Assembly (NCBI RefSeq): GCF_027942865.1
Contig: NC_134515.1
Span: forward strand, 3,728,839-3,792,838
Direction of reading: 5' to 3'
DNA length: 64,000 nucleotides
Source of the DNA: Odontesthes bonariensis
Lineage: Eukaryota > Chordata > Actinopteri > Atheriniformes > Atherinopsidae
The notes under the pieces were generated by a model. That model had not been told where the DNA came from and searched no databases. It was given only the letters and a program-made list of their open reading frames with translations. Every line of letters starts with the position of its first letter. Positions within the stretch are counted from its first letter, which is position 1. Position numbers and translations under genes: made by a program. Below, one piece after another: positions 25,139-60,400 of this stretch.

Positions 25139-25178
<40 letters not shown>

Positions 25179-37200: not shown

Positions 37201-39781
37201 ACTGTTTTTTCCGGAAAGATGCAGAAATATTAAACTTTTTGGCCTGTATAAAGCACCAAGCACCATCAGTCTATTTATATATCTATGATTCATGTATTTT
37301 GTGTTTTGCATTTTCCTATGTTTCGGGGTTTCTTATGTTCTGATGGACAACCAGGAGGTCATCCGGGAGGTCGGCCAGAGGAGCTCCTGATGATCCAAAA
37401 CCACAGTAAAAACAGTAGAAAAACAAGGCCTGAGACATGGACATGAAACAATGATCCGACAGGGAATAACTGAAACCAAGGAGTTAATATACTGAGGGAG
37501 TAAATACTACAAAATAAAACAGGAAGTGAGCTAAATAAGGAGTAAGAATCTATCTATCAGTCTATCTAAGATAAGATGAGAAGTAAGAATAGAATCGACT
37601 TGTTTACTTTGACTTGTTTTCCAGCAAACTTTTGAGTCTGTGCTGGAGTCGTACCGCAGCTCATGCGCTGGACATTGTGACTGTCATCGCAGGTGATCAC
37701 TCTCTCTGTGGTTATGGCGGTCCCAGCGAAGGGAAACGGTTCTTCGGCTCCGGCAAAACCTGGAATGAAAAGCAAAATGTTTGGTGAATAGTTACTCCAT
37801 AAAAGAGAAAATATGTTGGTTATGGTGCTGAAGCAGCTCTCTCACCTACACTTTCTTTTCAGGTTGATATAAATAAATACATGTAGAAATATTTATTTCA
37901 TTAAATGGTGGAGGGAGCTGCATCAACAAAGACTGCTGACAAGATAACAGATCAAAAGGTCAGATCTCCACTTTCTGGGTTAAGAGTCGCCTCCCTCAGC
38001 ATTGTAAACTATACAACTCTGAATAATATGGCATGCATTAAAGTTACTTATAGAGTCAAAACAAAGCTTGATTAAGTGTAAAAAGTTTGGATTCCCTCCT
38101 GTGCCTCACAATGGCTTGGTTTTACAGAACAGAATGAAATGTGTATTGACCTGAACACGTCAGCAAAGATGATGCTGCCAGCACTGAAAAGAGAAAAGAA
38201 ACCTCAGTGTTAGTTGATTTACTTGTCCTGTTACTTCTGTTTAAAGCTGCTTTAGCATTGGGCTTTTCCATGTCGAGTCAGACAAATTTATTCCACTTCC
38301 CCATGAATGATGATGATCATGGTGATCACACCATCAGGCTGCAGTGAAACAGTAAAGTCTGAGGGCAGAGACGAAGGAATGCAGGAACGGCTCAGATCAC
38401 AGAGTCAAAACCTGGAGACATTTCAGTAGCATGAACTACAGCTTTCATAAGGAGGGTGAGAGGGAACAGGTGGATGGATGATCAGAACATCCAGGATTTT
38501 TATGCACAAGGGTCAGTTTCACTGTGCTCAGAGTTTGTACTGAAACATGAATGTGCATCATTTTTGCACCTTCACCATCAAACATCATGTAAAACCTTCA
38601 TATCTTTAAAAATCATAAGGCTCGGTATGATTACTGGTTTTCATCGTAGACTGTATCTTTAAGGATTGAGATGACATTTGTTGTGAGTTGGCGCTCTATA
38701 GATAAAATCAAATTGAATTATATAATCATAAGTGAAAACAGTGCTTTGCCCTGAGAAGAGACAGAGGTCCCATCACTATCCCCACCTCAGTTCTTTCTCT
38801 TTAACTTCACAGGCAAAACCTGAAGAAACTGAAAAGACTTTCATGCTCACAGGTTAAAAATGATCATTTGGCTGATGGCAGATACAGGTTGTTTCTGTCT
38901 CTTTTAACACTCTGGGGTCTAAGAACCCGCCGGCGGGATTTTTGACACTTCTCCAAAAACACATCTGTAACTGTGAGTTTTTGTCATTCAAACATATAAG
39001 TGACACCATTAAAAACCTTGAAACTTATACTTTTCAAATATATATATATATATATTAAAATAAATGATATAGCTGGCCCTTTTTAAAGAGAGTGAAAAGA
39101 AATCTTTGGATTTTCTGTACTCTCTGACTGCATCAGCCTCCTAGGCCACACCTATCGCTATTCACATGTTAAGTACCAGGTGACTGAGTGGCTATTCACA
39201 GGTGAGAACACGCCCCATTCAGCCAGCATAAACAGACAATTATCACATGGAGAGTGACAGGGGGGTGGGGGCAATCGGGGGTGTTACACACCCATCTAAT
39301 TAGGATTCAGCTAACAGAGACACTGCCTTGAGTTACAATGACTTTTTTACAGCTTGTGTGGAAACAACAAAACATTTCTGACTGCACTTTTTACTTTTAT
39401 GCAGCCAACACTTTTGTTTACAAGGTTCAACCTTCAAAAGTCTTGGCTAGATATATTTATAGACCTCTAAAACCTGTTTTTTGTACAGTTGTGTTTCCCC
39501 TCAATTTAAATAAAACTTGTTTGTATTACATTCACTTTACTCTCATATTATTTTTTGTTAGGCTTTTCAGAATACAACCATATGTGTCACTTTTGCAGAG
39601 ATGTTTACAGTTAGTTGAAATACTTGAAAATGTCAAGGTGTTGCAAACTGCCTCAAAGTCTCTGAAAGAATGTATAGAAATAATAATTTCTTCTGTCTCC
39701 TTCTATGTTTTATCAATAAATCAAACATCTACAGTCAGCTGTGTACTTACGCAGTGAGATGCTCAGTCTGGTGCAGAACAT
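31255..39781 (-). CDS. Rhamnose-binding lectin (SUEL-type, two CRDs), copy 2
   Basis: Same eight-exon structure: 39751-39781, 38151-38183, 37655-37759, 36527-36662, 31802-31911, 31677-31721, 31445-31577 and 31255-31358. Exon lengths (31, 33, 105, 136, 110, 45, 133, 104 nt) are identical to the other copies and every splice dinucleotide is kept. The predicted protein appears identical to copy 1; the exon differences I found are silent (for example in exons 6, 7 and 8). Signal peptide, both YGR/DPC/KYL motif sets and all cysteines are intact. Just inside intron 3, downstream of exon 3, a few bases differ from copies 1 and 3. The Harbinger insertion begins about 180 bp upstream of the start codon, as in U1. 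Confidence 0.92.
32242..32454 (-). mobile_element. tRNA-derived SINE in RBL intron 4 (U2)
   Basis: Orthologous to the U1 SINE and duplicated with the unit, with the same A-box and B-box. The 3' homopolymer (poly(T) on plus) is much longer and interrupted by a C, showing tail-length change after duplication. The left target duplication has one substitution (AACCACCATC). Confidence 0.88.
32480..36260 (-). mobile_element. RLE-type non-LTR retrotransposon (R2/Hero-like), best-preserved copy, U2
   Basis: Orthologue of the U1 element. Here the RT core is one open frame (34141-34782, with AYMDD), the thumb/linker (33493-34116) is uninterrupted, and the CCHC plus endonuclease region is open (32677-33456). 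The N-terminal zinc-finger region is 35355-36209. It lacks the foreign patch and the 2-nt deletion of U1 and U3, but carries its own stop: a CAG-to-TAG change just upstream of the CCHC motif. It is the best template for classifying the family. Confidence 0.85.
38908..39667 (+). mobile_element. piggyBac-like MITE A, right end deleted (U2)
   Basis: Same insertion and same right-end deletion as U1, including an internal loss of about 24 bp near the middle. It therefore shares the U1 lesion by descent or conversion. Confidence 0.8.
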
Positions 39782-39957
39782 GGTGTCAGGAGATGCGGTC
39801 GGAGGTGCTGAAATGAAGGAAATGAAAAAGACTCTGGATATTTGTTCTGCTGGGGTAAGAGCCATCTTACGACACACGAATACAAAGTATGGGGAAATAA
39901 TCTTTTACTGACGTGTTGCATAGATTAAATCAGAAAACAAAAATGCTGGAACTGGTC

Positions 39958-41391
39958 TAACTGGCACGTGCAAGAGGATGGTAGATTTGCATACTCCACG
40001 CCCAAAATGATACCATATAAGGCTGTGCTTCCTCTGTCCTGTGCCAGGAAGTGTTGAGTCATGAGAACGGCATCAAGGCGCATAAAGAACAACTTTACGG
40101 GCTCTGAGATTAAAGTTCTGCTTTCAGAGATCCAGAAAGGAAAATCTGTCCTTTTTAGCAGTGTCAGCAGTGGAATTACGGGACCTGCTAAAGCCAAGAA
40201 ATGGGAAGCAATTACGAGTGCTGTTAACTCTGTGTCACCGAAATAAAAAAGAAATGGTTTAATATGAAAATGGCTTAAAAAAAACAAAAACGTCTCGCCA
40301 TGGCCAGGCGCTCGATGACTGCAACTAAAGCCGTGCAATCAGTTGTTGCCTCATCATGATGGCTCTTTGATGGGGCGGTTAATGAGGGGGGTCTTCTGGC
40401 ACCACACCTTCTGGTCTGCCTGGGCTGGTTCAGGTGGAGACCCTCGTTCATGGCAATATTGTACAAATCTGGGATGACTTCTCTGGGCTATAGAGCAGTT
40501 TGCCCCCCCGCTGTATCGAGACGCACCCACCTGGCCTTCAGCTCAGTGCGCTCCACGACAGCACGGGTGCTTTGATGCGTATATGTGTCCAGTCTATTGC
40601 TCCGATTATGTTTGGCAGTCCAGCCACGGCATGAAAGTCCCTCTTAATTTGTACTTGTTGGACAGCGGTGTATGGGAATATGATGTACCATGGGTGATAA
40701 ACTGATGAGAGCTTTGATGACCAAGCGGAGCGCACGACTCACAGAGGACTGGGACACCCCCGATCTGTCTCCAATCTCCCTCTGAAAGGTTCCAGTGGCC
40801 AAAAATCCAAGGGTGGTGAGGACCTGGACGTGTGGTGGAATTGGGTTTGATCGGCGTGTTTCTCTCTGGAGTTCTAGCAAGCTGCATATTTGCAGCAGCA
40901 AAGTCCTTGGGAATCTTAATCACGATGTCAGCCATTCGTCTGTCTCCGCAAGGATATCTACACGTTCTCGGAACACACGCTCCCCTCCAAGAGCCTGGCG
41001 CGCTAATGCATCCAAAAGTAGCAAGTCAGCCGCTGGTTATACTTCCCATTGACCTTGTTACATACAGAGTCAATTAACCTTCAATTAGTGCATAATTTAA
41101 GTCAAATAGAATAATGTCAACATCATTATGGGGTATAATGTATATATTTATTTATGTTTGCTTCAAAGTAATTAAATATACAATCCATTAGTCAAGCTAA
41201 CTTGATTGGAATGACAGCGGACTATTTTACGAAACTCCTACGACAGGTCTGGATCACTCGTAATTCTGTTCGTAACCTGAAAGAAAACGTAAGATGCAAA
41301 AAGATTGGTGAATGCGCAAATTTTCTTAAATCACTCGTACGCACGACTTAAGAACAAATCTGTGCGTACGAACGTTGTTGCATGAGGCCCA
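39958..41391 (-). mobile_element. PIF/Harbinger transposon, internally deleted (U2, first copy)
   Basis: Orthologue of the U1 element, with transposase fragments at 40606-41034 and the C-terminal piece at 40275-40466. The Myb/SANT-like frame is at 40061-40246. Only a few substitutions separate it from U1, and the deletion of the catalytic core is the same. Confidence 0.82.
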
Positions 41392-42068
41392 ATGACTGCG
41401 AGGTGCCCAGGTCCTGTGGCTGCAGAACCAGCCCAGATCATCAGCCCTCCACCACCATGCTTGACAGCTGGTGTGAGGTGTTTGTGCTGATATGATGTGT
41501 TTGGTTTCCTTCAAACGTGCTGCTGTGCATTATGAGCAAACATCTCCACTTTGGTCTGCTCTGTCCAAAGGACATTGTTCCAGAAGTCTTGTGGTTTGTT
41601 CAGATGCAGCTTTGCAAACCTAAGCTGTGCTGCCATGTTCTTTTTAGAGAGAAGAGGCTTTCTCCTGCAGCCCTTCCACACAAGCCATACCTGTTCAGTC
41701 TGTTTCTAACTGTGCTGGCATGACCTTTAACCTTCAACATACTAACTGAGGCCTGCAGAGTCTGAGATGTAGCTCTTGGGTTTCTGACCTTGGGGTGACC
41801 TTTAACCTTTAACATACTAACTGAGGCCTGCAGAGTCTGAGATGTAGCTCTTGGGTTTCTGACCTTGGGGTGACCTTTAACCTTTAACATGCTGACTGAG
41901 GCCTGCAGAGTCTGAGATGCAGCTCTTGGGTTTCTGACCTTGGGGTGACCTTTAACCTTTAACATACTAACTGAGGCCTGCAGAGTCTGAGATGCAGCTC
42001 TTGGGTTTCTGACCTTGGGGTGACCTTGCTGGGACGTCCACTCCTGGGAAGATTGACAGCTGGAACTG
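41392..42068 (-). mobile_element. Tc1-like transposase remnant with internal tandem expansion (U2)
   Basis: Orthologue of the U1 remnant, with the same fragment order but four 75-bp units instead of three. That accounts exactly for the 75-bp offset change between U1 and U2 on either side of it. Confidence 0.8.
41721..42020 (-). repeat. 75-bp minisatellite, block a (U2), 4 units
   Basis: Same unit as U1 block a with exactly one extra 75-bp copy. The minus-strand frame is open over 121 residues (41600-41965). Confidence 0.93.
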
Positions 42069-42151
42069 GACAGGCAGGAAGAAACTGGTTGAATGCTTTC
42101 TAACTTCCTTTAGAAGTTAGATAACATTTAACCAGTTTCTTCCTGCCTGTC
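42069..42151. repeat. Strong hairpin (inverted repeat), U2 first copy
   Basis: Orthologue of the hairpin at 12673, with the arms intact. Confidence 0.9.
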
Positions 42152-42645
42152 ACGTTATAATCGTATCTGCTTGACCTGTGTTACCCTGACATAAAAAAAC
42201 AAAAGGCCTTGTGTAAGTTCTGCTCTGTATTAGAATTAAGAGTAAAAAAAATATGAAAACTAACAACCAGAAAGTTACTGTAGTTTCTGAATGACTTCAG
42301 TGTTCAGATCTGAGTATTTAACTTAAAAACAGAGCTTAAACACAATCAGATGAGTAATGATCCATATAAAAAAATCCTCTTTTATTTTTAAACCTGTTGT
42401 GTTTTTGTGATATTGATGAATATCTGAGTAATGAGCGCATGTAAAACAAATTATTAATTATTTCTGTTGAACCTAACCCATGTTTTTTTCTGGATATGTG
42501 CTGCAGGAAGTATTTAAAACATTGAGTGGATGTGAACACAGCCACTTGTTTTCCAGTAAGACGATCTGTACTCAAGGAAGTAAACAGCATTTTGTGTCAA
42601 AGCGTCATCAGGAACAAAACTTTAATTTGTGAGGCTCATGCCAAA

Positions 42646-42838
42646 AATTCCTCTTCAGGTGCGCCGCAGGGGAGGAGTCGTCTGTTAACTCAGGACCTTC
42701 CTGCAAACGCTGGCACGGCACCAGGTGGTTATCACAGCAACCTTCCCTGCAGCCTGGGTGGTGAGCAGCACTTGGAAAGGTTCTGACCACTTCTGATGGT
42801 TCCCCTTCTTGGTCCTCATCACAACCCCGTCACCAGGC
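42646..42838 (-). pseudogene. Endogenous retrovirus pol fragment: integrase C-terminal region (U2)
   Basis: Orthologous to the U1 fragment, with a few substitutions (for example LEMCKKSRRRV upstream). Non-functional. Confidence 0.6.
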
Positions 42839-42842
42839 TTAT

Positions 42843-43641
42843 CACTCTGGAGTCTAAGAACCCGCCGGCGGGATTTTTTACACATCTCCAAAAACAAATC
42901 TCTAACTCTGTGAGTTTTTGTCATTCAAACATATAAGTGACACCATTAAAAACCTTGAAACTTATACTTTTCAAATATATATATATTAAAATAAATTATA
43001 TAGCTGGCCCTTTTTAAAGACAGTGAAAAGAAATCTTTGGATTTTCTGTACTCTCAGACTGCATCAGCCTCCTAGGCCACACCTATCGCTATTCACATGT
43101 TAAGTACCAGGTGATTGAGTGGCTATTCACAGGTGAGAACACGCCCCATTCAGCCAGCATCAACAGACAATTATCACATGGAGAGTGACAGGGGTGTGGG
43201 GGCAATCAGGGGTGTTACACACCCATCTAATTAGGATTCAACTAACAGAGACACTGCCTTGAGTTACAATGACTTTTTTACAGCTTGTGTGGAAACAACA
43301 AAACATTTCTGACTGCACTTTTTACTTTTATGCAGCCAACACTTTTGTTTACAAGGTTCAACCTTCAAAAGTCTTGGCTAGATATATTTATAGTGTGTTT
43401 TCTTGCACTGTTTGAAGACCTCTAAAACCTGTTTTTTGTACAGTTGTGTTTCCCCTCAATTTAAATAAAACTTGTTTGTATTACATTCACTTTACTCTCA
43501 TATTATTTTTTGTTAGGCTTTTCAGAATACAACCATATGTGTCACTTTTGCATAGATGTTTACAGTTAGTTGAAATACTTGAAAATGTCAAGGTGTTGCA
43601 AACTGTATCAAAGTCTCTGAAAGGCCTTAGACTCCAGAGGC
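42843..43641 (+). mobile_element. piggyBac-like MITE B (U2)
   Basis: Orthologue of 13447-14245, with intact termini and no coding capacity. Confidence 0.8.
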
Positions 43642-43701
43642 TTAAAGAGATGCAGCACACCGGCTGCTGGATCAGGGAGAGATGCTTTCACCTGTGAATG
43701 A

Positions 43702-44349
43702 GGCCCCATCCACACGTAGCCGGGTATCTGCTAAAACGAATATATTTTTCTACGTTTGGACCTGTCATCCACATGAAAACGCATAAAAACGCACCGTAAA
43801 CGAATGTTTTTAAAAACTCCGGGCAAAGTGAAGATTTTTGAAAACTCCGTTTATGCAGCTGCGTGTAGACAGAGATAACCGGAGATTTGCGTTTTCGAAC
43901 GTCACAATATGCGCCAAAACAACAACAAATCTGCTTAAAAGTCTAAAGTGCGACCTTTGTTTACTGAAGAAGCATGGATGTCTTGAGAACTGTGGTGGTT
44001 ATTATTGTGCAGGCGCTGTTTACTGCCTTGATTTTACACGCCCAAGTCGTACTCCTCACTCCTGTCGCTGTCGGAATTATTACGTCCTCATATCGAGGGG
44101 CAGTCATGCGATCACCTGTCCGTGTGCTCAAAAAAGTGGCGTGCACACTTTATTATTTAGCTTACGAGGGCAGATTACGCAAAACAGCAAATGCATTTGG
44201 GTTGTCAAGACAGGTGAAAACGCAGATGTTTGGTTATGTGTGGAAGGTGTTTTTTTCAAAAACGAGGTAATGTGGATACAGATTTTTTTATAAACGGAGG
44301 GGGGGAAACATTCGGTTTTAAAAATACCCGGCTACGTGTGGACAAGGCC
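43702..44349 (+). mobile_element. hAT-like MITE, direct arm (U2)
   Basis: Orthologue of 14306-14953, nearly identical. Confidence 0.7.
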
Positions 44350-44865
44350 TGAATATCTGATCGAAGACAAGACAGCAGAGCGCCTGCAGAACGGGGCGTG
44401 GTTTAACATTTGGCAGGGTTAAAGGTTAACTGCGACTGGTGCTTGCCAGGTTTGAGGATTTTCAAAAAGTACCGTGGTCCAGATCAGGTCTGGGAGAACA
44501 AACGTCAGAGAGAGCAGGTTCACAATCATGGTCCTCCCCTCGCCATCCTCACAAGGTGTAGAAAGAAGCTTAGCGGGACTCAAAACTCTGCCACATGTCT
44601 CAGCCTGTCACCATGTTGCTGCAAAGGGACAGAAGTCATGCAGCCCTCTATTCTTCAACAGTCTGTGTAAATGGTTTGCAAGGATCAGGGAGGCGCCAGA
44701 GTGGGTGGAGACACAAGTCCTGGTCTCAGTGTGGACAAAGTTTGTTAAGTTTCAGGGCTTCGTGTGATGATGTCTTTTGGTCCCAAACCCGATCAATGCA
44801 CACCAGCAGACAGAGGTGCTTCAATGACTGAACATTAAGGAATAAAAGAACAACAATATATACTC

Positions 44866-45036
44866 ACTCCCAAAAAGGACATGACTTTTTCTTTATTATT
44901 TGGCTTAGGAATCTGCTGGATAGCCTGAATGCATTTTGGAAGGAGTTCTATAGCTTCGGTGATAAGAGATTTCCCAGAAAGGTCACCTGCTGCTGCACAA
45001 GCTGAAGCTCTGACACACTGGCTTTGTGTCCTCCAG
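44866..45036 (-). pseudogene. Endogenous retrovirus/LTR element pol fragment: reverse transcriptase end (U2)
   Basis: Orthologue of the fragment at 15470-15640, with the same frameshift and non-functional. Confidence 0.6.
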
Positions 45037-45095
45037 CTGCAGGATGTTAGAGGAGTTTTAACAGTCAATGGTCAAAGAATGGTCCAGTCCACCTC

Positions 45096-46258
45096 AACTG
45101 GTGGACTCATACTCCTCATACTTGGAGGAGCGGAGTTATTTTGTGACCATTGGAAGTTATCAATCTGATCGAGTGGCTATGACATGTGGAGTTCCTCAGG
45201 GGTCAGTTCTTGGACCCCTTCTGTTCACCCTATACATGCTGCCTCTGGGTCAAATTCTGAAGAACTCTAAAGTCAACCTCCACAGCTATGCAGATGACAC
45301 ACAGATATATCTCGCACTGTCTCCAGATGACTGCAGTCCGATGGAGTCATTGTGCGACTGCTTAGAGCAAGTCAAAAAGTGGATGAACCTAAATTTCCTT
45401 CAGTTAAATCAAGAAAAAAACTGAGGTCATTGTGTTTGGCAACAAAGAGAAGAGGTTTGCTGTCAGTAAACATCTTGAGTCACTGTCTCTAGAAACTAAA
45501 GACGAAGTCCGGAACCTCGGCGTGCTGATAGACTCAGACCTGACCTTCAACAATCATATCAAATCAGTCACCAAATCAGCCTTTTATCAACTTAAGAACA
45601 TATCCAGAATTAAGGGTTTCATGTCCCAAACAGATCAGGGGAAGCTGATTCATGCTACATGCTAATGCTAACGGTCTCTGACTGGACTCCCCCAAAAGAG
45701 TCTCAAACAGCTGCAGCTCATTCAGAACGCTGCAGCCCGAGTTTTAACCAGAACAAAGAGATCACATCACATCACCCCAGTTCTCAAGTCTTTACGTCGG
45801 CTCCCGGTCAGATACAGAATAGATTTTAAAGTTCTGCTACTCGTCTACAAATCACAGAATGGTTTAGGTCCAGAACACATGAATGACATGCTAGCAGAGT
45901 ATAAACCCAGCAGAGCTCTGAGATCTGCTGACTCAGGTCAGATAGTGGAGCCCAGAGTTCAAACTAGACCCGGTGAAGCAGCTTTTAGCTGTTATGCTGC
46001 ACACAACTGGAACAAACTACCAGCAGAACTGAAATCAGCCACAACTGTGAGCACTTTTAAATCCAGGTTAAAAACATTTCTCTTTCCGTGTGCTTATGGT
46101 TGAGTTTATATCTTTCTTTTTCCCCTCTTCTTTGATTGCTTTTAACTGTGTTTTTAATTTTTTCTCTTTAAATTGCTTGTTTTTATGCTGCTTTATGCTG
46201 TTCTTTTAAATGCCTTGTCTTTATGTAAAGCACATTGAGTTGCCTGTGGTATGAAATG
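45096..46258 (+). mobile_element. L2/CR1-group LINE, 5'-truncated (U2)
   Basis: Orthologue of the U1 LINE with the same A-run frameshift and 3' deletion. Minor substitutions (for example Gln to Glu in KDEVRNLG). Confidence 0.9.
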
Positions 46259-46284
46259 CGCTGTATAAATAAAGATGCCTTGCC

Positions 46285-46461
46285 TTGCCTTTAACATGCT
46301 GACTGAGGCCTGCAGAGTCTGAGATGCAGCTCTTGGGTTTCTGACCTTTAACCTTTAACATGCTAACTGAGGCCTGCAGAGTATGAGATCTAGCTCTTGG
46401 GTTTCTGACCTTGGGGGGACCTTTAACCTTTAACATGCTAACTGAGGCCTGCAGAGTCTGA
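46285..46461 (-). repeat. 75-bp minisatellite, block b (U2)
   Basis: Orthologue of U1 block b with the same irregular unit. Confidence 0.88.
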
Positions 46462-47153
46462 GGCTATGTACACACATAGCCGGGTATTTTTAAAACCGAA
46501 TATTTCCCCCCCTCCGTTTATAAAATAATTTGTATCCACATTACCTCGTTTTCGAAAAAAACACCTTCCACACATAACCGAACATCTGCGTTTTCACCTG
46601 TCTTGACAACCCAAATGCATTTGCTGTTTTGCGCAATCTGCCCTCGTCAGCTAAATAATAAAGTGTGCACGCAACTTTTTTGAGCACACTGACAGGTGAT
46701 CGCATGACAGTGGACTGCCCCTCGATATGAGGACGTAATAATTCTGACAGCGACAGGAGTGAGGACCGGGACATGCGAAATTGTCACGCCATTCCTCTGG
46801 GAGTACGACTTGGGCGTGTAAAATCAAGGCTGTAAACAGCGCCTGCACAATAATAACCACCACAGTTCTCAAGGCATCCATGCTTCTTCAGTAAACAAAG
46901 GTCGCACTTTAGACTTTTAAGCAGATTTGTTGTTGTTTTGGCGCATATTGTGATGTTCGAAAACGCAAAACTCCGGTTATCTCTGTCTACACGCAGCTGC
47001 ATAAACGGAGTTTTCAAAAATCTTCACTTTGCCCGGAGTTTTTAAAAACATTCGTTTACGGTGCGTTTTTATGCGTTTTCATGTGGATGACAGGTCCAAA
47101 CGTAGAAAAATATATTTGTTTTAGCAGATACCCGGCTACGTGTGGATGGGGCC
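46462..47153 (-). mobile_element. hAT-like MITE, inverted arm (U2)
   Basis: Orthologue of 17066-17757, again inside a minisatellite unit. Confidence 0.75.
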
Positions 47154-47570
47154 TGAGATGCAGCTCTTGGGTTTCTGACCTTGGGGTGACCTTTAACCTT
47201 TAACATGCTAACTGAGGCCTGCAGAGTCTGAGATGTAGCTCTTGGGTTTCTGACCTTGGGGTGACCTTTAACCTTTAACATGCTGACTGAGGCCTGCAGA
47301 GTCTGAGATGCAGCTCTTGGGTTTCTGACCTTGGGGTGACCTTTAACCTTTAACATGCTAACTGAGGCCTGTAGAGTCTGAGATGCAGCTCTTGGGTTTC
47401 TGACCTTGGAGTGACCTTTAACCTTTAACATGCTAACTGAGGCCTGCAGAGTCTGAGATGCAGCTCTTTGGGTTTCTGACCTTGGGGTGACCTTTAACCT
47501 TTAACATGCTAACTGAGGCCTGTAGAGTCTGAGATGCAGCTCTTGGGTTTCTGACCTTGGGGTGACCTTG
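47154..47570 (-). repeat. 75-bp minisatellite, block c (U2)
   Basis: Five to six units, one or more longer than U1. The minus-strand open frame 47069-47431 is exactly 75 bp longer than its U1 counterpart. Some units carry the variant TGTAGAGTC, showing unit-level homogenisation. Confidence 0.9.
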
Positions 47571-47660: not shown

Positions 47661-48707
47661 AATATGAAAATGGCTTAAAAAAAACAAAAACGTCTCGCCA
47701 TGGCCAGGCGCTCGATGACTGCAACTAAAGCCGTGCAATCAGTTGTTGCCTCATCATGATGGCTCTTTGATGGGGCGGTTAATGAGGGGGGTCTTCTGGC
47801 ACCACACCTTCTGGTCTGCCTGGGCTGGTTCAGGTGGAGACCCTCGTTCATGGCAATATTGTACAAATCTGGGATGACTTCTCTGGGCTATAGAGCAGTT
47901 TGCCCCCCCGCTGTATCGAGACGCACCCACCTGGCCTTCAGCTCAGTGCGCTCCACGACAGCACGGGTGCTTTGATGCGTATATGTGTCCAGTCTATTGC
48001 TCCGATTATGTTTGGCAGTCCAGCCACGGCATGAAAGTCCCTCTTAATTTGTACTTGTTGGACAGCGGTGTATGGGAATATGATGTACCATGGGTGATAA
48101 ACTGATGAGAGCTTTGATGACCAAGGGGAGTGCACGACTCACAGAGGACTGGGACACCCCCGATCTGTCTCCAAACTCCCTCTGAAAGGTTCCAGTGGCC
48201 AAAAATCCAAGGGTGGTGAGGACCTGGACGTATGGAGGAATTGGGTTTGATCGGCGTGTTTCTCTCTGGAGTTCTAGCAAGCTGCATATTTGCAGCAGCA
48301 CAGTCCTTGGCAATCTAAATCACGATGTCAGCCATTCGTCTGTCTCCACATGGGTATCTACACGTTCTCGAAACACACGCTCCCCTCCAAGAGCCTGGCG
48401 CGCTAATGCATCCAAAAGTAGTAAATCAGCGGCTGGTTACACTTCCAATGTAATGTATATATTTATTTATGTTTGCTTCAAAGTAATTAAATGTACAATC
48501 CATTAGTAAAGCAAACTTGATTGGAATAACAGCGGACTATTTTACAAAACTCCTACGACAGGTCTGGATCACTCGTTATTCTGTTTGTAACCTGAAAGAA
48601 AACGTAAAATACGAAAAGATTGGTGAATGCGCAAATTCTCTTAAATCACTCGTACGCACGTATTAAGAACAAATCTGTGCGTATGAACGGTTTTTGCATG
48701 AGGCCCA
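47661..48707 (-). mobile_element. Second Harbinger fragment at the U2 rearrangement junction
   Basis: Corresponds to U1 10938-12070 but is more diverged than the U1/U2 pair. It has several substitutions and lacks about 65 bp equivalent to U1 11740-11805. Its left end joins exactly at the tip of a truncated hairpin (47611-47660). Its right end (TTGCATGAGGCCCA) abuts sequence leading into the truncated C-type lectin. The Myb-like frame is absent. Confidence 0.85.
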
Positions 48708-49111: not shown

Positions 49112-50713
49112 CATTTTTGCATATCTATTGGTGGGAATCTGGCTTCAGTCCACTCTGCTGATGAGAACATCTTCCTCAGTGAACTGGTTAAGAAAGTGAC
49201 CGGCGCTCATCACCACGTCTGGGTTGGAGGTTTTGACATAGTTGCAGTAAGTTACACGGTGCAATTTATCAAATTAAGTTTTTACTGAATGTGTGAGACT
49301 ATTTTACATGAATAAAATACAATTATTCATTTGTAATGTTTTGTTGACACATAACTCATCAATCACACACTTAATAAATGGTCTTTTATGAGGCAGCAGG
49401 TTGCAGCTTTGGTAAATCTGATTTATTATACTGCTGTGTATTTCTCCATACTACACAATGTATTTCCTCTTTCAGGACAAAAAGTGGCTGTGGACTGATG
49501 GATCAGACTTTAACTACAGGCGCTGGCATACTGGGCTGCCTGACAACCAGGGAGGAATTGAGCACTGTCTTGAGATCAATTATGGAGGTACAAACAGAGG
49601 TTCCACTACACTTTTATGGACAGCATATGGACACTGACAGTGTTCTCACTTTTTATGTCAACATCACATGAAGTCGCAGTGACAGCAGAATGTTTAAACA
49701 TCAACACTTCATTTTAACTGATATGTGAACAAACTATTTACAGGAAATAACATGAAACTAACTCATTCAACCTGCTGTAGGCTACGATGAACCCAGAGCA
49801 CCATCATGGTTGGCCTGGACTTAAAATGGGTGCTGGCTTGAGCATAGTCAAACAAAGGAGGCTGCAGCAGAAGCAGGTGTCATTAGGCTTTGTGTTTTTG
49901 CCTCAGAAAGACAACTTTACATGTATTCATTTTGCTCCAAAGGCTGATCTCAGTTACCTGCTCTGTATAAAAAACACCTATTTGAGGGATTGGATCTGAA
50001 TGAGTCCTAAATCCATCTAAACTGTGTTCACACCTGTTTTTAGAACTGTGAACCTGTGATTGGATCATGACGATCACATGTTCGCACCGAGTCTGAGCAG
50101 GCCCACAGATGAGCTGCAGGCCAGCAGTCCGTAGCTCTGCAGTGTGCTGTAGCATCCGGATAGCAAGTTATATGAAGTACAGTTTCAAGCTCATAGATGA
50201 TGAGCACATGAGCCTGTAGAACAGCTAATTAATAACACACTCTCACCCCAAACTGGACAGGAGGTCTACTGCATGTGGTTTAGAGACAGTGTTGCTATGA
50301 ACTACTTAAGTTTCTGGTGCTTGTTCTCATGTTTAAATCTGTTAAAATGACAGACGTCTTTCCCGTTTTTCCATTTTTCAATGATGGAAAATATTTGCCT
50401 AACAAGACACTTGGCACAAATATAAGTATTTGTTTTAAGATGTTTGATTTTTATTGAGATATTTGGAGACATCCCAGCCCGCTTTGTGCTGTAGGGTCAC
50501 AGTGTCGTGTTTAAGAAGCATTTGAAAATGTTCACAGACAGAGATATTCAACACACTCTTATGCACTGGAACAGGAACAAGCTTGTGTAAAAACCTAAAT
50601 TAATGCATGTTTCTCCATGTTTGTTTTTTCTAAAAAATCTCCAAACAGCAACCTACTGGAACGATGCACCATGTGACCATGGAAGATATTTCATTTGTGG
50701 AAAGAATCTGTGA
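49112..50713 (+). pseudogene. C-type lectin copy 2, lacking 5' exons
   Basis: Three exons match the last three of the complete gene: 49112-49246, 49476-49587 and 50649-50713, with identical lengths, phases and splice sites. They encode [15 protein letters not shown] to FICGKNL, with WND retained and LPD instead of QPN in the sugar-binding loop. Homology to the full gene begins only at about 48775, inside the intron upstream of the first retained exon. The signal peptide, linker and first CTLD exon are absent and replaced by Harbinger sequence. There is no in-frame stop within the retained exons. Likely a 5'-truncated pseudogene, although usage of a distant 5' exon cannot be excluded. Confidence 0.85.
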
Positions 50714-52390: not shown

Positions 52391-54490
52391 ACGAGTTGAT
52401 CACAAAGGATATTGAATCAGTGTTACAATTAGAGTCATATTAAAGAAAATCAATACTATCTAATCACATGTGTATTAACACTGTGGTCCAAACGTCACCG
52501 GCCTCGTCTCCCAACAGCTACAAAGTGAACTTTATTCTAAATGGTGTATTTGGATTTTTTCAGGATTCGATTGGTTGATTATTGATTCAATATATATTGA
52601 ATTTAAAGCATGAATTTGATGATGTCATCTTCTTTTCGGTGATGTCCTCAAATGGCAGGAGCTGCAAAAGACCAGGTAAAAACTGAATTTCAGTCAGAAG
52701 AAATCAGCACCAAAATGTGGCAGAAAAACCTTTTGTTAACACAGTGTGAATGTGGTTTGGTGGGAATAATCATGTCTTCTGCAGCTTTTTAGGAAACATG
52801 CGGAGGAATTAAATAAAAAGATATACAATGAGATAAATAACTGACAGAAATGGACTAGAATACGAAACATAAGAAAGGAACTATTAAACCAACGCAGAAA
52901 AACACAGACCATGACAACCTGACATCACACTTCATGGTGTTCACTGAGTTGAGTCACATGATGAATATCTCCATCACAACTGAGCCAGTAAAATTGACCA
53001 ATCACGTTTAGTTTTGTCCCTAAGTCATTGCTGTCCCGGTTCAAACCCTCCATGTGGGACGCTGTGGTCACTAAACACGTCTTTTCTGTGCAGAAAAAGT
53101 GAACTACGCCCACTCTTGCTGCTCCATGTGCAGCATTCTCATTGAAAACTGGCGTAAGCATCCAGGTGTTGGGTTAGAAGTAATGCTGATCAGAGCCAGA
53201 GCCCATAAATACCCCCGAACACTGCAGAGTCACTTGATGCGGGACTGAATTCTGATAATTTTCCTGTAATACTCAACAACACCAGATGTTAGTGGGCTTC
53301 ACATTTCATCAAATCTTTCCATGACAGCTTAGCAACCATAACTAGGTTTGCAGTTCAGTCAGATTTCTTATATCCATTTGCTCAGACATGAACTGTAAAT
53401 GTTAGCATGTCAAGCTGTGTAGCTCACAAAGTTATGCGGTGGAACTACAAAAGTCAAGCTAGAGCTCATATTCAGCTGTGATTGTTGCAGCTGATCCTCA
53501 GCTGTGTTGGTGTCTGAGCCTTTGGTTCAGGTTGTGGAGCAGTTAGCATCGCTCTCATTCTTTTTGTAGCTTCTCCAACTTCTACCCCAGCAGCATCTCA
53601 TGTCACAGCCCCACACACATTATAAAGCAGCTTCAGTACATTGCTGCCACCTGGTGGTATAAGCATTACCACCAGTGTAAACTTAGCAGCTTGTTTAATC
53701 ACACTGTGCAGATCAACATGTGTTTGTGTGGAAGTTCAGCCATTAACGGATCCCAGAAATCAGCAGAGCTCTCTGTGTTGTCAGCAGCTTTTATATCTTT
53801 ACAGCAGAGTCACTTCCAAACACCAACGTGAGTCGGGGTCAATCTGAAATACCAGCTTCCAGAGAAAGTTGATTCTCATGATTGGAAACTGTTTTTGACC
53901 AATAAAGGTTAACTTGAATAGTCTTTCGTTTCTGGTTAATATAGAAAATAAATGTGACCTCATGGCTCTGTTTAACACTACCTGGTTTCAGTAAATAGTC
54001 CATAAAAGGCCTGTCGGAGCTATTTGTTATTTTGTAATATTTGGCTCACTTATTATTTAGTTACCTTTTGGGGGTTTAGTTTTGGGGAATACACCTTTTT
54101 TGGTTGTTTATGATATTTAGTATTTTTTGAGTTAATTTGGGTATTTAACTATGCTTTTATTTTGAAGGCACTGGTTAGCTGGGGCTCACTGGGAGAGTTT
54201 TATTAGATGGGCAGGCAGTCACAGGTGAGCAGGCACCTGGGAGGGCTAATGGTTTTTGACCAGGGCAAGAGAGGCGGCAAAGGCAAAGTTCTTTGTTCGT
54301 TTGCTTGGTTTGAAGAATAAACCTAAAGAAACAATTTTTTTTTTGCCTGGACAATGGACTCATTTATCCTGCGTAAATTCACTCCCTAGCTGTCTCAGTG
54401 GCTGTTTGATTTCATTTAGTTTATTATTGTTTTGATTTTTTGATTATTGACACTGAGGACGAGTAGTCCATAAAAGGCCTTTAAAGTACT
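52391..54490. other. RBL 3' flank in U3
   Basis: Equivalent to 1-2100, with only scattered substitutions (for example at 53117 and 53257). No independent gene seen. Confidence 0.4.
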
Positions 54491-54493
54491 TAC

Positions 54494-57400
54494 ATATGCA
54501 TATGTAGGTCACCTCCAGGTACTTGTATGTGCCAACACAGGGGTCTCCAAACATTGAGTTGCTTGCTTTGACAGAACAGCTGCTTTTCCCATTGCAGCTG
54601 TGGATGAAACAGGAGCTTTAACATGGACTGAGGGAACATGGGTGCTATTAGATGGAGGATTGGAGTAAAGTAACATTCTGTACCTGGCAGCAACTTCACT
54701 CGCAGGCCTTGAGCAGAGGATATTTTGGACCTGACCGGTAGGACGCCCAAAAATGCACGTGTTCCTGTCACTGCGTCCATAATCGGCCCCGAGGACAGAT
54801 ATAACTTGCCCCTCACCTGACGAACAGAGAAGTTAGATACCCAGCTGGTGAAAGCAAGGAAAACACAAACATGTATATTTATGGCATCAATCCAATGAAA
54901 ATACAAGAATCTCACCACACTGAAGGTTTGCCAGAGAAAATTCACACGCTACACTTCGGACTGTTGGAGCAACAGAAATCACATGAGAAACAGAAATCAC
55001 CTCTGTTCAGCTGTTATGAGTTCAGTTTGATGCCACAGACCTGCAGGGAAGCAGCCGTAGGTGGTGTCCAGGTACTTGTAGATGCCATGGCAGGGATCAG
55101 AGGTACGAACGACGTTTGCATTGATTTCACACACTTTCTTACCGTCACATCTGCAGGAGCAAAAGGAAGGAAAAGAGCTTGTTTCCAGGTTTGAATAGAG
55201 GGATTCAAGGTAAACACAAGAAACTTGTGCTAAAGAAAAATAAATAAATAAAAAGAACCAGACTCAGTGAATAATTCCCTATACTATAGATCAGTGAGCA
55301 GTGCTGACCAACATATCATTGGGGTCATCAGGTGGGAACCTCCTTTCATCAGTGTTTCGTCTAGTTGGGCCCACAACACCTCCAGGAGGCTAGAGAGTGA
55401 TCACTGGCGTTCCAGAGTCACTCCCCTAATGCCAGCCAACACTGCTCCTCACACCACAACAACCATCTTTTTTTTCTGGGCTTTTTATGCCTTTAATGAT
55501 AGGACAGTTGGAGAGAGACAGGAATGCAAGGGGCAGAGAGAGGGGGGAGACATGCAGCAAAGGGCCGCTCGGTGCGGGACTCGAACCGGGGCCAGCTGCA
55601 GCGAGGACTATAGCCTCTGTACATGGGGCGGCTGCTTAACCCACTACGCCACCGACCACCCCAACAACCATCTTTTACAGCCACAAGCTACCCCAGCCTC
55701 TCACCAACTGCACACCAGTCACAGCGAGGATGCAAACCCTGGTTCGGGTAGGGGGTAATGAAAATATAGAGGGTGCCAGAGGTGGAGGCAGGACAAGACA
55801 CACCAGCAGATTCAGCCGACAAACTCACCTAAACAGTCCTATAATCACTAAAAATGCCAGCAAAATCAAAGCCATACAACTCACTCAAAGCCAACTTACC
55901 CAAAATGGCCGCCTGGTTTCAAAAGGATCACATGGGCCAAACCCTCCACTTAAATATCTTGAACTTCTTCTTTGCTTTTTCAAAAGTCTGTTTACCCTAA
56001 GTGCTCCCCCTGCTGGGCCCCCAGCTGCTATTGCTTCTTCTAATCCAAATCCACTGACTGGATTTTACTGCCTCATCTGGCACTTCCTTCACTATTTTCC
56101 TCACACTCTGTCCACTTACACCCAGCTCCCTCAACAATGAGACAACAGACTTTGCAACAAATCCTTTACATCCTACTTCCACTGGACAGATTCTAACTTT
56201 CCATCCTCGCTGCTCTGCTTCTGCCCCCAACTCTACATATCTAAGCTTTTTCCTTTCATATGCTTCTGCTACTAATTCCTCCCAAGGAACAGTCAGCTCT
56301 ATGAAATAGACTCTCATCCTACTCCTAGACCACAAGACTATATCAGGCCTTAGATTTGTAGAGGCTATCTCCTGGGGAACAACAAACGTATTTTCTAAAT
56401 CTACCTGCATCTCCCAATCACAAGCATCCTCCAAGCTGCCGTGTCTCCTTATTGTCTTATAAACTTTCTCCCCCTCTTGAACAAACTGAATTGCAACTCT
56501 CTTCACCTTAGACCTTCCTAAGTTTACCAGCCTTTGTTTATCTTCAATACCTGCAGCTAAGCTTCTTAATACTTGGTCATGTCGCCATGTATACCGGCCT
56601 TGTGACAGACTAACCTTACAACCTGACAAGATATGCCTTAGAGTTGCAGTACCTGAACATAACGAACATAACGGGTCTCCATTTACCCAGAGTTTCAGGT
56701 TCTGGGAAGTTGGTCATACATCATATGTTGCCCCTACCAAAAATCTAATACTCCTTTCCTTCATACTCCACAGTTCTTTCCAACTAAGCTTTTTCTTCTC
56801 TACACCTTCACAATTCAACCACCGTCCCTGCTTAGCCTGAGCCACTGCCTTTGCACCCCTTAACATTTCCTCCTGTCTACGAACCTGCTCAACAACTAGC
56901 TTTCTCTTCTCCTTGGGACCTGCTCTACTCCACACTGGTTTGCCTAGGCCAAGCCCCAAGCCTCCCCGGCCTATTTGCATATTACCCACAATCTCTGCAT
57001 GTCTAAGAGTTGCTTCTCCCTCCTGAGCTGCCATTCTTGGATTCCACTTTCTCCCACTTTACTAACTACCACATCTTTACTTGGACCCCTTCTGTTCACT
57101 CTATACATGCTGCCTCTGGGTCAAATTCTGAAGAACTCTAAAGACAGTGGCCACAAACAGTGGCCACATCAACCTATAGGAAACAATCCAAACCGCAGAC
57201 ACCACAGCTTCAACTTTCCTGGAAGCCCTGATTTATCTATTCTATCCAGTCCCTCAGCAACATCTTTCTGAAACTGCACTGCCTGCTCTCCATCATTCAT
57301 GTCTGCCTGGTACCACCTGCCTAAACTCTTTACTGCCTTTTCCCTAATTATTGGAATGTTTTCTTCATCAATTACAAACTTTCTATCACTTAATTTCCCT

Positions 57401-60400
57401 CTACTTATTGAGATACTTCTAGACTTAGTAGGTTTGATTTTCATACCAGCCCACTTTAGATTTTTATTAAGTCTCTCAAGTATTCTCTTCATACATGGCA
57501 CTGTTGTAGTCACCAACGTCATATCATCCATGTATGCTCTAATTGGTGTAAGGCGCATGCCATCCTGACGTCTCTCTCCACCTACAACCCACTTGGAAGC
57601 TCTAATAATTATCTCCATCGCCATTGTAAATGCTAATGGAGAAATAGTACACCCTGCCATAATGCCTATTTCTAGCCTCTGCCAACCTGTTGTGAAACCT
57701 GCTGTACTTAGGCAGTCTAATATCCTGAAAATATGCTCTTACTAAGTTAACAACTATTACAGGCACTCCAAAATACTCAAATGCTTTCCAAATAAGGCTA
57801 TGTGGCACTGAAACAAATGCATTTGCTAGATCCAGAAATATAACTTGCAAGTCTTTTTTCTCAATCTTGAATCTGATGCCAAATCATGCTAGTGTGCTTT
57901 AAACACCCTGCGAAACCTGGTATTCCTGCCTTCTGCACAGTATCTATCAAGCTATTCTTTTCTAAATAACTGGCTAATCTCTGTGCAACTAAACTAAAGA
58001 AAATCTTCCCCTCTTCATTTAGGAGAGAGATCATCCGGAACTGACTCAGGTCCGAGGCCTCTTTCTCCTTTGGAATAATAACGCCTCCTGCCCTACGCCA
58101 TGCTCTAGGAATAACCTGTTTCTCCCAAACTATTTTTAATTGCCTCCACTAAAACTTGAGGACATCAGGTGCACTTTTATAAACCCGGTAGGGGACTCCA
58201 TTTGACCCTGGGGCCGCCGAAGCCTTTGCACGCCTGACTACCTCCTCAACCTCCTTCCACCTAGGTGGTCTAACGTCCATCTTATGAGCTATCTCTCCTA
58301 ACGGTGGCATGTCAGGTGGAAGGCCTACTACTCTACGCTGTTCAAGATCTGAATATGTATTTCTTAGATACTCTTCCACCTCTGACTTTGTTGCCTTAAG
58401 CTGCCCTCCCTTTTCCTGGTTAAACAATCCTTTTTACAAACTTGAACGGATCCCTGTAAAATGCCGTTCTTACATATTCTTTCTTCTGTCTCTTTTTCCT
58501 AATATTTTCCGCCCTTCTGAGTATTGCTAGCCTGCCTCTCAATTCTTCCTGCAAAACATTAATTCCCTCTCTCTCTTCTTCTGTATCTTTTTTCCACTGC
58601 TTTCTTAAATTTCTTCTTTCCTTAACCAATTTCTCCATCTCTTTTTGCCGTCTAGACTTAACTAAATGTACTGTTTCAACCCTCTTTCTATCTTGCACCC
58701 CAAATCTTTCTACACAATAGGAGTAAATTATATCTCCCATCTTCTCTAGCCTATCGCTTGCATTTCCTCCTAACCTACCCAATATTATTGACAAATCTTT
58801 ATTGACTGCCTCCCATTCTTTGTTACTATTTGCCCTAGGCCACTTAACTCTAGCTTTCTGCTCCATATTTCTCTCTCTAACTGGCCTGTTCACCTCAGTA
58901 TCAGCTGCATCCCTTCTTAGAACCTCCTCCTCCCCCTCCGTAGCTGTGTTATTGATATCCTTCGGACTGTGGTTTTCTACCTGCCGCTGGACTTCATCCG
59001 GCTTACTCGACTGACTTCTTAAAAAGTACTGATCGATTCGGCCACACTGCCCTTCCTTTACCACACATCTCTTTCTTCCCTGATGCATTTTAAGGCCTCT
59101 AACTGATGTTACTTTCTGCCAGCCACAAGGACAAACCTGAAGCTTACTTCCCTCTGGTCTACCACTTTTATTTACGCTCTCTTTCCTCTGAGAATTGTTC
59201 TGGTCAGTTCTAGCCCTAGAGAATAGGTCCGTGCCCCTATCCTTCACTGAGTCGTGTATCCACCTCATAGTCATGTTCGTTCCAGGGAAGTGAATTGATT
59301 ACAGATTGATCTCTGGTGGGCCTGTTACTGTTTAATATCAACATCATTAGGAATGTTGTCCCACCAAAATGAGCGGTTGCTCAATTTGTCTCAGACTTTT
59401 TCATCCCACCATATGTCATCCATCACTTGGCTGCTTCAGCTGTTTATTTATCGCTTTAACTTTGATTCATTTCCAACTCCGTTAGCTCCTTTTAGTCAAG
59501 TTAAACCTCTGCTGCTTGTCAAATTCAAACATTTTCAATGAGTGTGCGACTCATCTGGTGGATTGATTCTGCGTCGTCATGGCAACTGTACCTTTTTTTC
59601 AGGACATCCACAGTGCCTTTCTGAGAGCACTTTGTGTTGGTGAGCTGCTCTGAAGGTCTGCCCTCACTGCAGGTCTCTGTGTCCAAACGTCCATACAGAG
59701 CTGACTGCACGATGATCACGCCATCCTCTGTTTCACAGAAAACACAGGAAGAAGATTTAATAATCCCAATCATCTTTATTTGATCCCAATAAAACTTCAT
59801 TTTTCCATCACATAAAAAAGAAAATGAATTAAATAAATTAAAATAATTCAAATCTCTTGAAGTGAAAATGTATGTCAAGTAGATAATGGTGTAAGACCCC
59901 TTAAATAACTTATAGAAATAATAACTGTCTATGTTTCATTTATGTTTTATCAAGAAATCCAACATCTAAGCTTCCTGGTTTTACATCAGCCTCAGTTTCT
60001 TTCAGACAGACAGAGGCAGCTCCTGGTCCATGTGAGTTCAGCTGAGTTCTCTGCACAGACGCTGTCTTTAAGCTGCTTTAATGCTGATTCTGTGGTTATA
60101 AAATCAGGATTTTATTAGAGCAGAGCGACAGTCTGGAAATGCTTTAAGTGAGCTGACACGTAGTCCTAATGGGCTGATTTTAGTCCAAGTTTTGAGAAAA
60201 GAAACAGAAAAATATGTGAATCGGAGCAGCTTTACTGGGAATTCAGCTGGATTAATAAACACTTTACAGTTTTTTCCTGAAAGATGCAGAAATGTTAAAC
60301 TTTTTGGCCTGTATAAAGCACCAAGCACCATCAGTCTATTTATATATCTATGATTCATGTATTTTGTGTTTTGCATTTTCCTATGTTTCGGGGTTTCTTA

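Follow-up and report, generated by a model that had tools for sequence, protein, structure and literature searches.

Why do the exons of two lectin loci in one fish genome differ far more than the intron that lies between the last two of them? The question is raised by a 64,000-nt stretch of Odontesthes bonariensis DNA (C15:3728839-3792838), which we call the window; its internal numbering is used below for all coordinates not prefixed C15 or C16. It carries two C-type lectin loci, copy 1 and copy 2. The original prediction was that exons outpace introns between them, and its counts are confirmed. The three shared exons (135, 112, and 65 bp, 312 bp together) show 41 differences over the 309 bp without the stop codon, with 29 codons replaced and 3 changed silently, whereas the intron between the last two, intron 5, is 1061 bp long in both copies and shows 20 differences at 1060 sites plus two gaps (1.9%). 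Copy 1 has QPN and SNWLSG where copy 2 has LPD and RRWHTG, and the cysteines and the WND motif are kept, as had been stated. As a general rule, however, the contrast fails: intron 4, which the prediction had omitted, differs at 20 of 229 aligned sites (8.7%). Below, we ask what combination of selection, gene conversion, and gene truncation could have produced this pattern.

Gene structures and protein identity

Copy 1 is a complete six-exon gene on the forward strand (19525-23905) that encodes 168 residues. Exon 1 (19525-19587) holds the start codon and a predicted signal peptide; it is hydrophobic, and the structural model of P0002, an O. bonariensis protein, has a helix at residues 6-23 at low confidence. 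Exon 2 (19934-19964), which has AG/GT splice sites, is followed by exon 3 (20133-20233), exon 4 (21001-21135; 14 of 135 bases differ from copy 2), exon 5 (22668-22779; 19 of 112), which encodes the long loop with the QPN motif, and exon 6 (23841-23905; 8 of 65), which encodes WND and ends with the stop codon. Intron 5 lies at 22780-23840. Intron 4 (21136-22667) owes its large size to a ~1.3-kb insert (about 21202-22503) with inverted repeats near both ends; the 20 differences given above were counted without this insert, and in two parts of the intron they amount to 9/66 and 11/165.

Copy 2, also on the forward strand, comprises only exon 4 (49112-49246), intron 4 (49247-49475, 229 bp), exon 5 with the LPD motif (49476-49587), intron 5 (49588-50648, 1061 bp), and exon 6 with WND and the stop codon (50649-50713); no match to exons 1-3 was found beside it. 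Differences between the two copies are densest at 49123-49574, a stretch that runs from exon 4 across intron 4 into exon 5; a second dense stretch, 50615-50707, begins about 30 bp before the end of intron 5 and continues through exon 6.

Copy 1 encodes a complete C-type lectin domain (PF00059, E = 9e-21, residues 58-165, profile positions 2-106 of 107). Among the best 120 of 143 database matches, the top one is an O. bonariensis galactose-specific lectin nattectin-like (88%), and many others bear this or a similar lectin name; the closest relatives belong to atheriniform fish. The predicted fold of P0002 matches the galactose-specific lectin 1jzn and the herring type II antifreeze protein 2py2; the sequence match to 2py2 (E = 3.6e-28) is little above that to ordinary lectin domains, e.g., langerin 5m62 (3e-24).

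The window consists of tandem units: 1-10333 matches 52391-62750 (99.2%), 4755-12631 matches 34084-41952 (99.0%), and 12400-18098 matches 41796-47494 (99.4%). LINE-like reverse-transcriptase open frames lie on the minus strand at 4772-5263 and 34141-34782, both matching RVT_1, and at 57169-57660, in the third unit. A run of 35 G occupies 25143-25177.

The paralogue family

A DNA search of the same genome gave at least 38 matches, of which at least 29 fall in at least 16 lectin loci; the nine lowest-scoring ones, short intron pieces with 67 bits or less, were not considered further. Eleven of these loci are on C15 and five, the D copies, on C16. Four C15 loci are B copies (copy 2 of the window and those at 3725, 3697, and 3631 kb), and two are A copies (copy 1 and A_3658 at 3658-3661 kb, which encodes protein P0001). 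The others are at 3597, 3677 (minus strand), 3803, 3810, and 3815 kb (minus strand). Exon 1 is invariant over 945 pair-sites in six of the seven distinct C15 genes; the seventh, at 3815 kb, and the 3810-kb locus use a different exon 1.

The five near-alike D lectins are spread over 24.4-33.0 Mb of C16 (8.6 Mb) and are not in tandem. The 3810-kb locus (C15:3808554-3812700) has exons 1, 3, and 4, and its exons 5 and 6 were not recognised; the tail of a database model, P0021, matches DNA near C15 3812.6 kb and not exons 5-6 of this locus. Further C-type lectin domain matches were seen at C6:34.87-35.19 Mb and on C50 (150 of 406 candidates were scored); several of those on C50 score the same as those on C6, and C50 is possibly an unplaced haplotype.

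Origin of copy 2

Copy 2 belongs to a set of very similar genes. Compared with the B copies at 3725, 3697, and 3631 kb (B_3725, B_3697, and B_3631), it differs by 0, 1, and 1 coding bases over exons 4-6 and by 4, 2, and 3 bases in intron 5; exon 4 is identical in all four, and its three exons encode 103 of 103 residues of P0002. The original prediction held that a third paralogue with exons and adjacent introns equally close to copy 2 would point to simple conversion. Three such paralogues are present, and the reason is that copy 2 arose from them as a recent, truncated duplicate and not that one patch was converted. Exons 1-3 are present in B_3725 and B_3697, and also in B_3631, which is 99.93% identical to B_3725 over the 1407 bp that hold them; therefore, copy 2 is the sole truncated member of the four.

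The break itself can be located. Homology of copy 2 to B_3725 and B_3697 begins at 47715, inside their intron 3, and continues at 99.2-99.3% identity to 53000, the end of the compared stretch, whereas on the upstream side 44000-47494 matches the 5' side of the copy 1 unit at 99.7% identity. The junction (47661-47715) thus joins a copy 1-like 5' flank to the interior of a copy-2-type intron 3, and an array of a 75-bp minisatellite (47153-47569) lies immediately upstream. Recombination beside this minisatellite would have joined two units, removing the promoter side and exons 1-3, and we infer that copy 2 is a pseudogene born in this way. Insertion of a transposon was rejected as the cause of truncation: the element from 47715 on is also found in intron 3 of the full-length relatives.

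The start codon and a complete C-type lectin domain are absent from copy 2, and the DNA just before its exon 4 contains in-frame stops. Judged by the P0002 model, the truncation takes away strands 44-46 and 49-58 together with half of helix 60-69, and copy 2 is therefore likely non-functional. Could its exon differences then be no more than the drift of a decaying pseudogene? As decay would have it, the 5' flank and exons 1-3 seen in its relatives are missing, and with them the predicted signal peptide and the N-terminal portion of the domain. Its coding bases in exons 4-6, however, are those of full-length B_3725, with no difference private to copy 2, no stop, and no frameshift within them, 103 of 103 residues of P0002 are encoded, and drift predicts an omega near 1 and not an excess of replacements; this explanation is barely credible. 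The differences would instead have arisen in full-length relatives, before the truncation. It is also very unlikely that the truncation or the near-identical copies are artefacts of assembly. The other B copies do differ from copy 2 by only 2-4 bases in the 1061 bp of intron 5, but they lie on one 40-Mb contig at unequal spacing, and the upstream flank of copy 2 is different. Because B_3725 is full length, the comparison of A and B genes is independent of the truncated copy.

Divergence along the gene

We compared copy 1 with B_3725, the full-length relative of copy 2, by aligning both to one reference; a multiple alignment of whole introns was set aside because large inserts produce false divergence peaks. 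The result is a mosaic. From the 5' side on, divergence is 0.6% in the 5' sequence, 0 in exon 1, 1.2% in intron 1, 7.1% in exon 2, 6.0% in intron 2, 6.9% in exon 3, 4.9% in intron 3, 10.4% in exon 4, 8.7% in intron 4, 17.0% in exon 5, 1.9% in intron 5, 12.3% in exon 6, and 1.9% in the 3' sequence. Values of 2% or less are confined to the 5' end, the signal exon, introns 1 and 5, and the 3' untranslated region (3'UTR). Introns 2-4, the local introns of the exon block, differ at 47 of 746 sites (6.3%), whereas introns 1 and 5 and the 3'UTR differ at 33 of 1736 (1.9%), a 3.3-fold difference (p=7e-8). Silent sites of exons 3-6 (6.0/93, 6.4%) agree with the local introns (p=1), and intron 4 of copy 2, taken by itself, resembles silent sites in its divergence from copy 1.

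Relative to the five C16 copies, local introns and outer parts are both 6.6-6.8% diverged when the same columns are compared, the version of the between-chromosome test used here; therefore, a regional mutation rate is an unlikely cause. The ratio of within-pair to between-chromosome divergence in these columns is 0.93 for the local introns and 0.30 for the outer parts, and none of 5000 bootstraps reverses this order. By these distances, the outer gene parts are younger than the block from exon 2 to exon 5. The outer parts are likewise younger between A_3658 and B_3725; between copy 1 and A_3658 the difference (local 0.51, outer 0.37) is not significant (bootstrap 0.10).

Intron 5, the neutral control of the original prediction, was consequently rejected in this role, as introns 2-4 disagree with it. 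The apparent excess of replacements is 8-fold against intron 5 and 2-fold against the local introns, because the introns of this one gene differ in age. A neutral clock based on a single intron thus overstates selection about four-fold here.

The division into outer and local parts does not account for everything. In three comparisons, the pooled 4-fold silent sites of the exons are 2.3-3.4 times as diverged as intron 5; between chromosomes the values are 17.4% and 7.5%, and within C16 they are 5.2% and 1.5%, with intron 4 of the C16 genes at 1.4%. Since the excess is also present between chromosomes and within C16, part of it is unexplained by the outer/local split. Exon lineages of greater age could be the cause, as could faster silent change in exons or noise. 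Exchange through mRNA copies was also considered and is not favoured, because intron 4 is as old as the exon block in the window pair.

Probable selection on the mature domain

For the window pair alone, the method NG86 gives dN of 0.166-0.177 and dS of 0.065-0.079, a ratio of 2.1-2.7, with a one-sided Fisher p of 0.02-0.08 that varies with kappa. The excess of nonsynonymous change has p=0.046 against silent sites alone and p=0.06 against intron 4 alone. When copy 1 is compared with B_3725, and silent sites are combined with the local introns, the excess is about 2-fold (39/291 vs 53/839, p=2e-4). Across the C15 cluster such an excess is found in 19 of 21 pairs at p<0.05, uncorrected and with pairs that are not independent, and is absent in two. 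Omega exceeds 1 in 20 of 21 C15 pairs, 34 of 35 C15-C16 pairs, and 7 of 10 C16 pairs.

Codon site models, custom-written in Python, were fitted to exons 3-6 (26 codons of exon 3) of 12 sequences with a separate tree for each exon. These sequences represent 15 of the 16 loci, with the four B copies entered as one (B_3725) and the 3810-kb locus, whose exons 5 and 6 were not recognised, left out. Model M0 gives an omega of 1.47. M2a is preferred over M1a (2dlnL 34.75, p=3e-8), with 44% of sites at an omega of 3.4, and 40 null simulations under M1a reached a 2dlnL of at most 3.23. M8 is preferred over M8a (p=2e-9), the M7/M8 comparison agrees, and a single exon tree and a noncoding tree give agreeing results. 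The seven C15 genes (p=1.5e-8) and the five C16 genes (p=0.005) each show the signal as well. A site class with omega above 1 thus fits better than the neutral model, which supports diversifying selection. The strong diversifying selection that had been proposed is supported by the codon models of these 12 paralogues, but its effect size is about 2-fold with the local control and not 8-fold; the possibility raised with it, that dN/dS would not be above 1, did not materialise.

Changes were also said to cluster around the sugar-binding loop. In the window pair 8 of 14 loop residues are changed, compared with 21 of 89 elsewhere (p=0.014, with loop limits set post hoc). The codon models single out 15 sites with a posterior above 0.95, mapped by hand to P0002 residues 55, 57, 61, 96, 99, 107, 112, 114, 124, 127, 128, 134, 137, 153, and 156. 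They include 5 of the 14 residues from 124 to 137 around the xPx tripeptide and 10 of 115 elsewhere (p=0.012, limits again post hoc). Clustering is thus visible, and yet 10 of the 15 best-supported sites fall outside the loop.

The tripeptide itself is highly variable. It is LPD in the B genes, QPN in copy 1 and the 3803-kb gene, QPT in A_3658, EPN at 3597 kb, QPD at 3815 kb, and EPS at 3677 kb; the five D copies all have EPN. Six different tripeptides thus occur in the seven distinct C15 genes, with one QPD and one EPN among them; both canonical forms are absent from the window copies, which keep WND. EPN is the mannose type and QPD the galactose type, and EPS, QPN, and QPT are among the variants described in shrimp, according to the available part of a report on them (PMC8402412). 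On sequence grounds, the selected trait would be ligand specificity.

Could selection alone, with exons evolving faster than introns and no conversion, explain the whole pattern? The C16 group looks like such a case, with whole introns diverged by 1.3-2.3%, exons 3-6 by 5-9%, and M2a preferred, as given above; the last 115 bp of intron 3 in this group are 4.6% diverged. In the window pair, however, the 3.3-fold difference between introns 2-4 and introns 1 and 5 with the 3'UTR is left unexplained, the comparison with C16 shows no such difference in rate, and the trees conflict, as described below. Selection alone is unlikely and already disfavoured.

Conflicting trees and shared tracts

Different parts of these genes have different histories. 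In AU tests the exon data reject the tree of intron 5 and the 3'UTR (p=6e-4), and the converse also holds (p=0.0015). Rejection is also mutual between exon 5 and exon 6, and the intron 4 tree is rejected by exons 4 and 5; the exon 5 tree is not rejected by exon 4 (p=0.17). In the exon 5 tree the 3597-kb and 3677-kb genes group with the C16 copies (ultrafast bootstrap 94). The distance of exon 5 of the 3597-kb gene is 0.146 to the C16 copies and 0.243 to copy 1 (bootstrap 0.995). It is also nearer to C16 than to A_3658 (0.98) and the 3815-kb gene (0.995) and, less surely, than to B (0.92) and the 3803-kb gene (0.84). Exons 4 and 6 of the same gene point the opposite way, and its intron 5 and 3'UTR are nearer to the C15 genes, strongly so for most comparators. 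For the 3677-kb gene the exon 5 result is weaker (0.50-0.91). An exon-5 lineage, WSDGS...EP, would be common to two chromosomes, and the surrounding introns are not shared. WSDGS occurs in all 8 Leuresthes and Menidia proteins compared, so the sharing of exon 5 may be a retained ancestral state.

We also searched for shared tracts with a run test on polymorphic columns of six of the seven C15 genes (15 pairs), which was repeated with four genes. Two of the 15 pairs remain after Bonferroni correction when all columns are used: copy 1 and A_3658 have an exon 4-exon 5 tract in common (p=0.0005, corrected 0.0075), and B and A_3658 have one in intron 5 (p=0.0015, corrected 0.02). With noncoding columns one of 15 remains, as the B-A_3658 pair is borderline (0.003, corrected 0.045) and the copy 1-A_3658 tract is not significant (p=0.13). 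The window pair itself is not significant after correction (p=0.07 for all columns, 0.036 for noncoding columns). With four genes only the copy 1-A_3658 tract remains, and no B-A tract is found.

Taken together, we consider it probable, from sequence comparison, that the mature domain is under diversifying selection while the 5' end, signal exon, intron 5, and 3'UTR are homogenised between neighbours by conversion. Selection would favour new sugar-binding surfaces in this nattectin-like lectin cluster, and gene conversion between neighbours would keep the outer parts alike. As to the exon-targeted conversion proposed originally, a conversion component is likely, but we read it as homogenisation of outer gene parts and not as targeting of exons; the two are hard to separate.

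The opposite reading takes the youth of the outer parts as the real age of the duplicates; conversion from an older paralogue would have brought the block from exon 2 to exon 5 (and exon 6) into one of them, and selection would then have kept this import. The exon 4-exon 5 tract common to copy 1 and A_3658 fits an import, as do the conflicts of several exon trees among themselves and the fact that intron 5 of copy 1 is, by a nominal and small margin, nearer to the copy-2 type (20/1060) than to A_3658 (26/1060). On the other hand, dN/dS exceeds 1 within the block even with a tree for each exon, and import alone is thus insufficient; moreover, outer distances are 1.9-4.3% among six of the seven distinct C15 genes, as cluster-wide homogenisation predicts (those of the 3815-kb gene from the other C15 genes are 4.5-7.2%). 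We regard import as possible but rather doubtful and favour rejuvenation of the outer parts by conversion.

A broader idea, to which we give about as little credence as to import, sees in the cluster a germline library for sugar specificity, in which swappable exon blocks of older, selected lineages would sit inside a homogenised frame made up of the promoter side, signal exon, intron 5, and 3'UTR.

Comparison with known systems

The window genes resemble the nattectin-like and ladderlectin-like lectins of fish (PF00059) in their single lectin domain, in the name of the best match, and in the predicted fold of P0002. They differ in that most C15 genes carry LPD, QPN (two genes), QPT, or EPS and in that the domain of copy 2 is N-terminally incomplete. 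A parallel for diverse exons in homogenised introns is found in the MHC genes, where old selected exon lineages sit in younger recombined surroundings. There, the variants are alleles in populations, whereas here they are paralogues in one assembly.

Three further systems share single features with this cluster. The type II antifreeze proteins of herring and smelt are lectin-like, and their genes have five introns; the introns and 3'UTR are unusually conserved, and an anomalous pattern of silent and non-silent change was reported in the portion of that work at hand (PMC3499448). In that portion, species are compared and lateral transfer is invoked as the explanation, whereas our comparison concerns paralogues in one genome (PMC3499448). 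The small serum proteins of snakes form a tandem array in which, according to the available sections of the report, two recent pairs have KA/KS values of 1.54 and 1.74, with intron divergence of 0.049 and 0.065 and intronic transposon fragments (PMC6609765). They are not lectins, and we found no split into homogenised and old introns in those sections (PMC6609765). The conger eel galectins congerin I and II show accelerated amino-acid substitution tied to altered sugar specificity, as stated in the accessible part of the source (PMC3269628); they are two genes of the galectin family whose binding was studied experimentally, and introns are not treated in that part (PMC3269628).

Among the open-licence papers listed by our searches, we found no account of selection or conversion in this lectin cluster. 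Accelerated change in fish galectins, and low intron divergence along with it in snake serum proteins, were already known, as far as the available parts of those sources go. What is new is the case itself, with the introns of one gene split into two ages and with its variety of motifs. Because most gene lineages of this compact fish lectin cluster have their own sugar motif, the link between selection and ligand is directly testable here.
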